The translations under genes were made by a program, and so were the position numbers. Under the pieces are notes generated by a model. It searched no databases. It was given only the letters and a program-made list of their open reading frames with translations, and was not told the origin of the DNA. Shown here one piece after another: positions 28,772 through 33,276 of a stretch of 64,000 bases of DNA (the first letter of the stretch is position 1; every line of letters starts with the position of its first letter). Source of the DNA: Acetobacter pasteurianus subsp. pasteurianus LMG 1262 = NBRC 106471 (GTDB taxonomy: Bacteria; Pseudomonadota; Alphaproteobacteria; Acetobacterales; Acetobacteraceae); contig NZ_CADO01000139.1 in assembly GCF_000285275.1 (NCBI RefSeq), positions 1-64,000 on the forward strand. Reading direction: 5' to 3'.

Positions 28772-29722
28772 TTACTGTGCCTGCGTGGCAATGTTTTTGC
28801 GCGCAAAGCGGAAATCCACATTACAGAATTCGCACGTCATCACGATGTTTCCATCATCCTGGCACATGTGGTCCAGATCATCTTGCGGGAAGGTTTCCAG
28901 CACATTGGCCAAACGCGCGCGGGAGCAACGGCACCCAAATGCCAAAGCCCGAGGCTGGCTGATATGCAGGTCTTCTTCATGGAAAAGCCGGTGCAGAAGC
29001 TGCAATGTTGGCAGGCTATCGTCCAGCAGTTCCTTGGTGGAAAGGGTGCCTGCCAGAATGGTGGCTGTTTCCCAGCTTGCTTCTGCGGCTTCGTCTTCCA
29101 CCACGTGGCTGCCGCCTTCGCCCGCAATGCGTTCCAGTATCAGACCGCCTGCGCGCCAGCCTGCATCTGTCATCTGGCAGGCCAGCATAATCCAGCATGC
29201 GTGCTGCTCACTGCTGGCAAAGTAATGCATGGCCATTGCAGACAGATCATCACCGGCAATTTCCACAATACCCTGATGCCGGTCCATTTCCGGGCCTTGG
29301 TCCACCGTAAGGGCCATATAGCCGTTACCCAGCAATTCGCGGTCTGTGGGTTTGGGTGTTTCTTCCAGCAGGGCTGCCAGCGCCTCATCATCCGTGCGGG
29401 CGTAAAAGCGTAGCGCGCCGGTGTTGGTGCAGTCTGCCACCAGCATGGAAACAGGGCCATCACCCTTCATCTGAAGGGAGAAAGAGCCCTGAAACTTAAG
29501 GGCAGAGGCCAAAGCTGCCACCAGTGCCAATGCCTTGCCAGCAAGGCGCGTAACAGGGGCTGGGTGATCATGCCGTGTGAGCAGCGTATCGGCCAGCACG
29601 CCCAAACGCACCAACCGGCCACGCACGGGCCGACCAGCCAGATAAAAAGGCGTTACACCACCGGGCACCACCAAATCGGGCACATCTGGGCGGTCACGAT
29701 CAAGAAAAGCGGGTTTTTCCAT
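28772..29722 (-). CDS. hslO: Redox-regulated chaperone Hsp33
   Basis: Hsp33 is a cytosolic holdase switched on by oxidative stress. The 316-residue protein has the usual N-terminal domain (GRLVRLGVLADTLLTRHDHP, LGNGYMALTVDQGPEMDRHQGIVEI). The C-terminal zinc-binding redox switch is GCRCSR near residue 263 and TCEFCN near 296, so all four cysteines of the CxC/CxxC switch are kept. It is the last gene of the argD-argF cluster, an order known from other alphaproteobacteria. Confidence 0.95.
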   Translation of the reverse strand: MEKPAFLDRDRPDVPDLVVPGGVTPFYLAGRPVRGRLVRLGVLADTLLTRHDHPAPVTRLAGKALALVAALASALKFQGSFSLQMKGDGPVSMLVADCTNTGALRFYARTDDEALAALLEETPKPTDRELLGNGYMALTVDQGPEMDRHQGIVEIAGDDLSAMAMHYFASSEQHACWIMLACQMTDAGWRAGGLILERIAGEGGSHVVEDEAAEASWETATILAGTLSTKELLDDSLPTLQLLHRLFHEEDLHISQPRALAFGCRCSRARLANVLETFPQDDLDHMCQDDGNIVMTCEFCNVDFRFARKNIATQAQ

Positions 29723-29846: not shown

Positions 29847-30164
29847 TTACGCCCCTGCGGAAATATCCAGCTCCAGCTTTTCCAGCTTCTGTTCAAGGGC
29901 ACGGCCGGTTTCTGAATCCATGTTCAAACCGTCCTTAAGCGCAACAAGCAGCCCCTTGCGGCAGGCATCGTGCTCGCTATCCAGATCTTCCGTACGGCCA
30001 CAGCCAGCCAGACAATCCAGATAGGCGCTACGGAACGGTGCCAGCTTATCTGCCGGGAACGGCAACGTCGCCAGAATAGCATCCAGACTGCTTTCCACCC
30101 AGCCGGGGGTGGCGGGTGTATCTTCGGTAGATGTCATGGAAACTGTTCTGTCTGTGCCGCTCAT
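29847..30164 (-). CDS. Small protein of unknown function in the arg cluster
   Basis: A 105-residue cytosolic protein whose ATG lies 4 bases after the argF stop codon, so it is almost certainly co-transcribed. It has a PGWVESSLDAILATLPFPADKLAPFRSAYLDCL stretch, three cysteines (DCLAGC and DACRKG) and a helical C-terminus. I do not recognise a family. A second in-frame ATG lies at 30137. A GCAGGGG/CCCCTGC hairpin at its 3' end (29838-29858) may act as a weak terminator before hslO. Confidence 0.6.
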   Translation of the reverse strand: MSGTDRTVSMTSTEDTPATPGWVESSLDAILATLPFPADKLAPFRSAYLDCLAGCGRTEDLDSEHDACRKGLLVALKDGLNMDSETGRALEQKLEKLELDISAGA

Positions 30165-30168
30165 GTGC

Positions 30169-31170
30169 TTATTCCTTGCCGAAAGAGGTCCAGTTTGTGC
30201 CACCCATTGTCCATGCAAGCACGCCTTTCTGGGCATGAAGGCGGTTTTCCGCCTCATCAAACACCACAGAATGCGGGCCTTCAAACACGTCCTTGGTTAC
30301 TTCTTCCCCTATATGGGCAGGCAGGCAGTGCATGAACAGGGCATCTGGCGCAGCAAGGGCCATTAAATCTGCATTTACGCGGTAGGGTTCCAGCTTGCTC
30401 ATACGTGTGGCGGCTTCCTTGGGGGAATCAGACATGCTGATCCATGTATCCGTCACCACGCAATCGGCACCTTTTGCGGCGGCTTTGGGGTCTACCGTCC
30501 ATTCCACATCACCGCCTTCGGCACGGGCCCAGTCCAGCACGTCCTGCGGGGGCTTCATGTCTGCGGGGGTGGCGGCACGCAGGGCAAAGCCAAAACGCAC
30601 GGCCCCTTCAATAAGGGAGACAAGCACGTTGTTGCCATCACCCGTCCACGCAAAGGTGCGGCCACGCACGGGGCCACGATGTTCCTCAAACGTCATGATA
30701 TCGGCCAGAATCTGCACCGGGTGAGAATGCGGGGTAAGACCATTGATAACTGGCACCGTGCTCCACTGTGCCAGTTCGTGCATGGTTTTTGTGTTGCCAG
30801 TACGCAGCATAATGGCATCTACAAAGCGGGAGAGCACGCGGGCTGTATCGGCAATGCTCTCACCACGGCCAATCTGCATTTCCTGCGGGCTGAGCACCAC
30901 GGCATCGCCCCCAAGCTGGCGAATGCCCACTTCAAAGGAAACACGGGTGCGGGTGGATGGCTTGGAAAGAATAAGCCCCAACTGCCGCCCGGCCAGCGGC
31001 TGGCGCGGGTGCAGCGGAAACCGGCGGTTCTGCTGCATGCGCTTCATGCTGGCGGCTACATCCAGAATCTGGCGCAGGGTTGCGGCATCCAGATCTTTCA
31101 GATCCAGAAAATGGCGGGGCGTTGCCAAGGAAGAAGAGGGCAGGGCAGTGGTCATGTTGGCGGCGCTCAC
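30169..31170 (-). CDS. argF: Ornithine carbamoyltransferase
   Basis: It makes citrulline from ornithine and carbamoyl phosphate, the sixth step of arginine synthesis. The 333-residue protein has the carbamoyl-phosphate motif [12 protein letters not shown] near residue 69, SHPVQILAD near 148 and the ornithine-site FMHCLPAH near 285. The GTG at 31170 overlaps the argD stop (GTGA); an in-frame ATG at 31155 is the alternative start. Second gene of the argD-argF-unknown-hslO group. Confidence 0.95.
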
Positions 31171-32414
31171 GCTGTTGGCTCCAGAACTGTCTTGTTGTTA
31201 TGATTTTTTCTGAGTGTGCTGACAGCCTGCACCAGCAGGGCCACAGCTTTGCGGCATTCTTCTTCGGAAACAGTAAGCGGCGGCACAAGGCGCAGCACGT
31301 TATCACCCGCGGTTACACACAACAGGCCTTCATTTTGCGCGGCACCCTGCACATCACCCACTGCGGGCACGCAGCGCAGGCCTATCAGCAGGCCAAGGCC
31401 ACGGCGCTGGGCAAAAATATCCGGCGCATCAGCCACAAGGCTGTCCAGAAGTTCATCCAGCAGGGCCGCACGGGTGCAAACCTGATCTAAAAAGCCGGGG
31501 GCCAGAATAACATCCAGCACAGCGTTACCAGCCGCGCAGGCCAGCGGGTTGCCGCCAAATGTGGTGCCGTGTGTGCCCGGCGTCATGCTCTTGGCAATGG
31601 TTTCTGTGGTGAGGATGGCCCCAATGGGGAAGCCCCCGCCCAAACCTTTGGCCGTGCTGACAATATCGGGCTTGATGCCAGCCCATTCATGCGCAAACAG
31701 GCGACCTGTGCGGCCAACGCCACACTGCACCTCATCCAGCGCCAGCAGCACGCCGGTTTCATCGCACAGCGCGCGCAGGGCACGCAGATATTCCGGGCTG
31801 GCCACCTTAATGCCGCTTTCACCCTGAATGGGTTCCAGCATAACGGCTGCGGTGTTAGGGGTAATGGCGGCTTTTACGGCTTCAATATCGTTGAAAGGCA
31901 CGTGCAGGAAGCCTTTTACAGGCTCACCAAAGCCTTCCAGATATTTGGGGTTGCCGGTGGCGGAAAGCATGGCCAGCGTGCGGCCATGAAAAGCCCCATC
32001 CATGCAGATAATGTCTGTGCGTTCGGGGTGGCCTGCCATCATCTGGGCGCGGCGGGCCATCTTCACCATGCCTTCGTTGGCTTCTGCGCCGGAATTGCAG
32101 AAGAACGCGCTATCGGCAAAGGAGTTTTCAACCAGCCTGCGTGCCAGCTTTTCTGCCTGCGGAATCTGAAACAGGTTGGAAACGTGCATGACCTTGGCAG
32201 CCTGCGTGCTTACGGCTTCCACCATCTTGGGGTGTGCGTGGCCAATGGAGCACGTGGCAATGCCCGCAGCAAAGTCCAGGAATCGTCGCCCGTCCGACGT
32301 TTGCAGCCAGGAGCCTTCTCCCCGCTCAAAGGCGAGATCAGCGCGCTTGTATGTCGGCATCAGGGCAGAAATCATGGAATCTGGTCTTTGTGTTGGCGGT
32401 TGTTGAACCTGCAT
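31167..32414 (-). CDS. argD: Acetylornithine aminotransferase
   Basis: A PLP enzyme converting N-acetylglutamate semialdehyde to N-acetylornithine, which can often also serve lysine synthesis as DapC. The 415-residue class III aminotransferase has [21 protein letters not shown] near residue 42, [18 protein letters not shown] near 105, the PLP aspartate in [12 protein letters not shown] near 225 and the Schiff-base Lys in [13 protein letters not shown] near 254. The ATG at 32414 is used; 32375 is possible. The gene is preceded by a promoter and an intrinsic terminator-like hairpin. Confidence 0.94.
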
Positions 32415-32437
32415 GGTGAGAAGTGGAGTGCAGAACG

Positions 32438-32474
32438 AAAAACGCCCGCTGCCTTGATATAAGGTGAGCGGGCG
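32438..32474 (-). promoter_or_regulatory. Candidate transcription attenuator of argD
   Basis: Read on the minus strand, CGCCCGCT and AGCGGGCG form a perfect 8-bp stem, extended by an inner CCTT/AAGG pair, and are followed directly by TTTTT. This is a textbook intrinsic terminator, but it points toward argD and ends 23 bases before its start. The only gene upstream is on the other strand. A smaller GCCCG/CGGGC hairpin lies at 32475-32489. Confidence 0.65.
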
Positions 32475-32491
32475 GCCCGTATTGCGGGCGT

Positions 32492-32521
32492 ATCATGGCC
32501 TTTTGTGCAGATTAAAGTCAA
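32492..32521 (-). promoter_or_regulatory. Sigma70-like promoter of argD
   Basis: TTGACT (-35, 32521-32516) and CATGAT (-10, 32497-32492) are separated by 18 bases. Transcription would begin near 32485, just ahead of the attenuator-like hairpin. Confidence 0.5.
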
Positions 32522-32613: not shown

Positions 32614-33276
32614 ATGACGCATTCTGGTTCTTCCTCATCTGCCCACACATCATCGGGGTTTCCGCAGCTTGATCGCCGCGTGTTGCGAGAGGCCGCACTG
32701 GCGCATCTGGCACGTTTTGGTACCACGCGCCACGGGCTGGAACAGGTGCTTTTGCGCCGGATTGCACGGTGGGAAAAACAGGCCCTCAAAGCCGGAGCCG
32801 ATACGGAGGAAGTGGCTGAAGCTGCACAGGCGCTCCGCCCCGTAGTAGCTGAAATAGCAGAAGAAATGGTGCGCCTTGGTGCGGTGGACGATGCCAGTTT
32901 TGCAACAGCCCGCGCACGCAGGTTGGTGCGCTCTGGCCGCTCTGGCCGGGCGGTGCAGGCGCATCTGGCTGCGCGCGGCGTGGAGGCTGATCTGCGCGAT
33001 GCCGCCTTGCAGGATGCGGTGGAAGGGTTTTCTCCTGCGCAAAGGGAATTATGTGCCGCACTGGTTCTGGCCCGCAAGCGCAGGTTGGGGCCATTTGCCA
33101 CGCCTTATGTTGCGGATGATGAAGATGCTGATACCGAGCAGGCTCTGGCCCGCAGGCACAAGGCGCTGGGTGTGCTGGCCCGTGCGGGATATGCGCGGGA
33201 TGTGGCGGAGCAGGTTTTGGATATGTCCCCCACAGAAGCGGAGGACTGGATGCAACGTTTGAGGGCCGAATCGTGA
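32614..33276 (+). CDS. recX: RecX-family regulatory protein
   Basis: RecX proteins bind RecA and limit its filament growth. The 220-residue, mostly helical protein shows three-helix repeats with the RecX pattern: ALAHLARFGTTRHGLEQVLLRRI near residue 28, EEMVRLGAVDDASFATARARRLVRSGRSGRAVQAHLAARGV near 84-124 and KALGVLARAGYARDVAEQVL near 189. recA is not adjacent. Its stop overlaps the start of the next gene (GTGA). Confidence 0.82.
   Translation: MTHSGSSSSAHTSSGFPQLDRRVLREAALAHLARFGTTRHGLEQVLLRRIARWEKQALKAGADTEEVAEAAQALRPVVAEIAEEMVRLGAVDDASFATARARRLVRSGRSGRAVQAHLAARGVEADLRDAALQDAVEGFSPAQRELCAALVLARKRRLGPFATPYVADDEDADTEQALARRHKALGVLARAGYARDVAEQVLDMSPTEAEDWMQRLRAES

Follow-up and report, generated by a model that had tools for sequence, protein, structure and literature searches.

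Genes and features at the argD locus

The window, i.e., the whole stretch of 64,000 nucleotides that was analysed, belongs to a genome of the genus Acetobacter (2.98 Mb in 141 contigs). It holds an arginine operon, argD-argF-hslO, on the minus strand, with the following features in and around its 5' leader.

28772-29722, minus strand: hslO, Hsp33 chaperone, a further gene of the argD-argF run (PRK01402 and PRK00114, two Hsp33 models, match best but fall short of their curated cut-offs)
30169-31170, minus strand: argF, ornithine carbamoyltransferase (TIGR00658, above cut-off)
31167-32375, minus strand: argD, acetylornithine transaminase, starting at the conserved ATGATTTCTGCC (passes the cut-offs of NF002325 and TIGR00707)
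32430-32439, minus strand: 3' strand of closing helix P0, overlapping the end of the U-tract (RNA fold)
32438-32442, minus strand: U-tract TTTTT, predicted end of an RNA of about 48 nt (T-score 4.14)
32443-32474, minus strand: terminator hairpin P1, CGCCCGCT...AGCGGGCG with inner CCTT/AAGG (-18.2 kcal/mol; found in 45/49 Acetobacter)
32476-32485, minus strand: 5' strand of P0, the transcript's first bases GCAATACGGG (RNA fold; covariation in the genus)
32485, minus strand: predicted +1, 7 nt past the -10 hexamer and uncertain by 2-3 nt
32492-32521, minus strand: sigma-70-type promoter of argD, TTGACT-18-CATGAT (sequence and conserved spacing)
32614-33276, plus strand: recX-like gene, divergent neighbour (best match RecX, below cut-off)

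The argF gene overlaps the argD stop by 4 nt. Between argF and hslO, an ORF of 145 aa (29847-30284, minus strand) has no NCBIfam match, and may encode an uncharacterised small protein of the argD operon.

The start of argD had been placed at 32414, only 23 bases past the terminator, in an earlier sequence-only reading of this DNA. In the genus alignment, however, the start falls at 32375, where the pattern is ATGATY[CT]C...; at 32414 a close relative (G223) has TTG in place of ATG, and elsewhere the codon is missing. The true start is thus very probably ATGATTTCTGCC at 32375, judging from the alignment, which extends the distance from U-tract to start codon to about 62 nt.

A terminator-like hairpin between promoter and argD

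The promoter, the stem of 8 plus 4 bp and the TTTTT run described in the sequence-only reading are all present on the minus strand. The -35 hexamer TTGACT occupies 32521-32516 and the -10 hexamer CATGAT occupies 32497-32492, separated by a spacer of 18 nt. The outer stem of P1 pairs CGCCCGCT (32474-32467) with AGCGGGCG (32450-32443) over 8 bp, and the inner stem pairs CCTT (32464-32461) with AAGG (32455-32452) over 4 bp, the layout being CGCCCGCT CA CCTT ATATC AAGG C AGCGGGCG. T is found at seven of the next nine nucleotides, and stem and U-tract together read TTTTTCGTT. This is the structure of an intrinsic (rho-independent) terminator, a GC-rich stem directly followed by a U-tract. The leader presents a minimum free energy z-score of -3.4 against shuffles, folding better than 199 of 200 of these. 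An RNA ending at the U-tract would be about 48 nt long, close to the 50 bases first estimated.

It had also been claimed that the terminator has no upstream minus-strand gene to serve, and this was confirmed, as the neighbouring recX-like gene is divergent. A GCCCG/CGGGC hairpin at 32489-32475, proposed as a competitor of the terminator, is real as a sequence, but its 5' arm precedes the predicted +1 at about 32485 and it is confined to the five genomes of the window's clade; as a general mechanism it was therefore rejected.

The genomic background was assessed by scanning 400 kb of the window's own contig (about 13% of the genome) in both orientations for a TTGAC promoter followed by a terminator at most 45 nt away, a terminator being considered strong at dG <= -12 and T-score >= 2.6. 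The scan yielded 28 TTGAC promoter-like sites, eight of them with any terminator-like structure within 45 nt. Given the argD site is the sole strong promoter-then-terminator arrangement in the 400 kb scanned, the arrangement exceeds what chance would be expected to give. The GCCCGC...GCGGGC stem was not found as a genome-wide repeat used elsewhere as a terminator.

Conservation within Acetobacter

The argD gene was located in 49 of 49 Acetobacter genomes, and its upstream region was examined in all of them. In nearly all other leaders of the genus, the promoter spans exactly 31 nt, counted from TTTGAC through the last base of the -10 hexamer, which is CATCAT, CATGAT or CATTAT. P1 with its GCGGGC 3' arm is found at argD in 45 genomes, with energies between -13.5 and -19.9 kcal/mol. 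Loss of the stem in close relatives, looked for as possible counter-evidence, does not occur: all four nearest genomes keep it exactly. The four genomes in which P1 is missing comprise two reduced ones (1.5-1.7 Mb) and two divergent species, the latter retaining a short hairpin at +1 that is not followed by a U-tract.

The stem sequence of P1 is nearly invariant in the genus, while ArgD proteins differ by up to 32%, and species differ in the spacing of the P1 arms, which is 10 to 16 bp. The 3' arm GGCAGCGGGC hardly varies, even in leaders whose partner arm has changed (G232 type). As judged from this alignment, P1 is conserved beyond what keeping a hairpin needs. The U-tract is more variable, with a score of at least 2.2 in 37 of the 49 genomes; in eight genomes it is weak (T-score <= 2), with the long hairpin described below still kept. 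In G205/G206 the U-tract region has become TATGTCTGTTT, and its complementarity to the leader's own 5' strand is kept.

The distance from the -10 hexamer to P1 is 16-19 nt in all aligned Acetobacter, about 6 of which are untranscribed, so that only 10-12 nt separate the predicted +1 from P1. No leader ORF with regulatory codons fits before the terminator in any aligned Acetobacter. Given these 10-12 nt, a leader peptide is excluded for lack of space if the promoter assignment is right, in agreement with the earlier remark that no clear one is seen.

The closing helix P0

When the leader is folded from the predicted +1, the transcript's opening bases form a helix, P0, with the U-tract and the nucleotides just past it. 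P0 and P1 are nested rather than mutually exclusive, and together form one long 5'-terminal hairpin in the predicted folds of almost every Acetobacter leader. Since P0 requires sequence past the usual release point, it would belong to the read-through mRNA. In most Acetobacter the predicted +1 lies on the P0 5' strand, so the stem would start near the 5' end, as in stabilisers of the ompA type. The clade that includes the window has a weak P0 (3 bp, mismatches, 5 bp), and most other Acetobacter have a strong one.

Covarying stem bases had been suggested as a check on the hairpin. P1, being almost invariant, offers no covariation to count inside the genus, and in other genera it is replaced by a hairpin of wholly different sequence; it is P0 that covaries. 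Among its outer cells, 93 of 128 are paired, whereas 2000 shuffles averaged 73 and never exceeded 88; such shuffling leaves the relatedness among the sequences in place. The pairs observed across the genus are C-G, G-C and U-G at outer position 1; G-C, U-A, A-U and C-G at position 2; C-G, U-A and U-G at position 3; and G-C, A-U and G-U at position 4. They were counted in Python on an anchored layout, as the MAFFT alignment blurs P0. In addition, the pairing of a leader with its own 5' segment exceeds that with a swapped or shuffled one by about 3 to 4 standard deviations; this excess holds for Acetobacter, for other Acetobacteraceae and for the class sample described below, and was not seen in 14 other named Alphaproteobacteria. 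Within Acetobacter, the predicted long hairpin of P0 and P1 is better kept than the U-tract.

Other Acetobacteraceae

The same two-tier hairpin, with unrelated sequence, is found at +1 in Gluconobacter, Brytella, Asaia, Swaminathania and Neokomagataea, an example from Gluconobacter being TGCGGAATC...GATTCTGCA enclosing GGCCCTGCCCCGGGCGACCGGGGCAGGGTT. A U-rich tail accompanies the sequence-distinct hairpin before argD in Gluconobacter, Neokomagataea, Asaia and two further genera of the family sample. In these two, g60 and g73, a terminator hairpin with a U-tract precedes argD in a longer leader. The covariance model built for the element, R1, fails to detect the argD hairpins of other acetic acid bacteria; hence, these hairpins are linked by position and shape, not by sequence. 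In one g60 genome (G135, leader L007), an upstream GGTGGGC could pair with GCCCACC, the 5' arm of the argD terminator, resembling a classical antiterminator; this was not seen in the similar leaders L016 and L196.

Outside the acetic acid bacteria, many Acetobacteraceae have a hairpin at the transcript start without a U-tract. Acidocella-type leaders (L068, L072, L076, L078, L079, L085, L091) are about 30 nt long and consist of hardly anything besides a hairpin of 6-7 bp, TGCTTTC...GAAAGCA, directly before the argD start codon, with no U-tract. The 3' arm of this hairpin is a possible weak ribosome binding site.

Comparison across Alphaproteobacteria

A class sample of 89 argD leaders was drawn evenly from Alphaproteobacteria, with 30 recA and 30 argG leaders as controls. 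In 67 of the 89 leaders, argD is preceded by a TTGAC promoter whose -10 box is good, and in 26 of them, 18 strong, a terminator follows within 45 nt. The controls contain no such promoter-terminator case (0/30 for both recA and argG), and a TTGAC promoter occurs in 0/30 recA and 2/30 argG leaders. Given only argD often has a TTGAC promoter, this control cannot separate the promoter from the terminator. We make no claim of homology between the argD hairpins of different orders; what recurs across much of the class is the arrangement. The argD gene of Sinorhizobium meliloti is transcribed divergently from gcrA (PMC3616915), and therefore no upstream same-strand gene needs a terminator there either.

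Downstream of most argD promoters in the class sample (L201-L289), the predicted transcript opens with a pyrimidine tract such as GCTTTCC, T occupying one position within the first 8 nt or so in 85%; Acetobacter has AAC-GGG instead. Individual folds of other alphaproteobacterial argD leaders suggested pairing of this tract with the ribosome binding site. Sequestration of the binding site was rejected as a candidate, the value being 0.35 against 0.38 in composition-matched controls.

Searches for known regulators and further copies

ArgR (PF01316) is absent from the window's own genome, the same search having found it in 9 of 14 genomes as positive controls. Among the Proteobacteria studied in PMC5343134, ArgR is reported as confined to gammaproteobacteria. 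At the gathering threshold, neither the window nor any of 14 related loci matched an Rfam 15 family, and relaxed thresholds gave a single sub-threshold match of 14.4 bits. No conserved aptamer was found, and no unpaired sequence is common to different genera. Given the silence of Rfam and this lack of a shared unpaired sequence, a metabolite riboswitch is disfavoured. A regulated attenuator would need an antiterminator that excludes P1 and is kept genus-wide; none emerged from the folds compared, the GCCCG/CGGGC hairpin and P0 included.

No other strong copy of the argD element was detected in the window's own genome or in the family sample. R1 was also tried as a means of finding a regulon, and this was abandoned: beyond argD it gave only weak matches and no arginine regulon, and those inspected are ordinary GC-rich hairpins adjoining genes, e.g., dnaK-dnaJ. 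In two Acetobacter species, the dnaK-dnaJ intergenic hairpin resembles the argD hairpin in its GCCCGCTCC stems (L192, about 1755-1817; L193, about 1723-1787), a likeness that is probably convergent.

The open-access literature searched (Alphaproteobacteria, Gluconobacter, Sinorhizobium, Caulobacter) yielded no account of argD attenuation, of an argD leader or of a small RNA from it, nor any transcript data on argD in Acetobacter. Going by Rfam 15 and this literature, the argD element is undescribed.

Interpretation

Sequence and comparison show the promoter, P1, the U-tract, their conservation, and the pairing potential and covariation of P0, as well as the lack of an upstream gene to serve, of space for a leader peptide and of an ArgR gene. 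With moderate confidence, we read the element as a promoter-proximal premature terminator, without leader peptide, in the argD-argF-hslO 5' leader. This is the leading reading because the terminator lies between the promoter and the sole operon it could serve, the neighbour being divergent. The conserved sigma-70 promoter would start RNA at about 32485, the nascent RNA would fold P1 after 10-12 nt, and the U-tract would allow part of the polymerases to terminate near +48. The operon would then be expressed only from read-through transcripts, in which P0 would seal the 5' end into a single long hairpin. That read-through might answer to arginine or a related signal is a guess. Control by premature termination had been proposed in the sequence-only reading, and what stands of it is a terminator that serves solely the argD operon, is kept genus-wide and has its arrangement repeated across much of the class; the competing hairpin does not stand.

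Like the trp, his and ilv attenuators, the predicted leader places a terminator past the promoter and ahead of the first gene in an amino acid operon, and would yield a short terminated RNA. Unlike them, it leaves no space for a ribosome in front of the hairpin, and has neither a leader peptide nor a codon run. The pyrBI and pyrG attenuators sense nucleotides and have a start-proximal terminator. The argD leader resembles them in having its terminator close to +1 and no classical sensor domain, yet there is no homopolymer slippage run at its predicted +1 (GCAATACGGG), and none is conserved in the genus. In Escherichia coli, a 5'-terminal stem-loop stabilises the ompA mRNA; the argD stem likewise begins a few nucleotides from the predicted 5' end, but a U-tract of the kind seen in intrinsic terminators forms part of its 3' strand. 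Alphaproteobacterial SAM-II leaders (metZ; O-succinylhomoserine sulfhydrylase in Gluconobacter) are also cis leaders of an amino acid pathway in the same bacterial group, and those of terminator type act by premature termination, as predicted for argD. The argD element differs from them in lacking an Rfam match and an unpaired core shared between genera, and in measuring about 55 nt as a whole. The SAM-II leader of Gluconobacter oxydans is covered about 20-fold more than its ORF (PMC5756330), which provides a precedent for terminated leaders in acetic acid bacteria.

Given the long hairpin outlasts the U-tract and related genera have hairpins without one, the hairpin may act at the 5' end of the mRNA besides, or in place of, termination. 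This is the main rival of premature termination, and we consider it rather unlikely as the principal role, although both can be true. P0 and P1 would guard the mRNA from 5'-end-dependent decay or form a cleavage site, with the U-tract serving chiefly to pair with the 5' strand, and termination a side effect. It would account for the covariation of P0 beyond the shuffle maximum, the long hairpin folded from +1 by almost every Acetobacter leader, the retained complementarity in G205/G206, the preference of 5' segments for their own leaders, and the hairpins at +1 without U-tracts elsewhere in the family. However, it leaves unexplained the strong U-tracts kept in 37/49 Acetobacter and the recurrence of U-tracts with unrelated sequences in other genera and orders, and P0 is weak in the very clade of the window.

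An unlikely reading is that of a fixed brake, in which a constitutive partial terminator tempers a strong promoter without any sensor. In its favour are the strong promoter and terminator, with no conserved sensor or antiterminator found, yet a weaker promoter would achieve the same level, and the near-invariance of P1 despite the divergence of ArgD suggests selection beyond hairpin strength. We give little credence to the terminated RNA of about 48 nt being a trans-acting small RNA: it would have its own promoter and terminator, a 3' arm nearly invariant even with a changed partner, and a leader-derived precedent in RZ, from the S. meliloti metZ SAM-II leader (PMC9373788), but nearly all conserved bases lie within the stem, there is no conserved single-stranded seed, and the element is missing outside argD. 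Most improbable is a repressor operator near +1 to +45, for although an inverted repeat with conserved arms lies downstream of the promoter, an arm spacing of 10 to 16 bp between species would hardly be tolerable for a dimeric DNA-binding protein, P0 pairing and the U-tract would be unexplained, and no second copy is found at other genes.

Beyond premature termination at one locus, it is a tentative possibility that Alphaproteobacteria control argD-argF through an old, class-wide leader element at the start site that senses arginine status. This joint claim comprises the TTGAC promoter, a start-proximal hairpin that is a terminator in many lineages, and the closing helix in Acetobacteraceae, with arginine sensed without leader peptide, ArgR or known aptamer. 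If true, it would be considerably more interesting than a start-proximal terminator or leader hairpin as such.

The control of arginine synthesis in Alphaproteobacteria, where ArgR is absent, is poorly known, and a conserved terminator at the argD start site would be a precise place to test it. One orthologous gene also offers a natural comparison of leader hairpins with and without a U-tract. The hairpin kept by nearly all Acetobacter species points to RNA-leader control of the arginine operon in a class where the usual repressor is missing.
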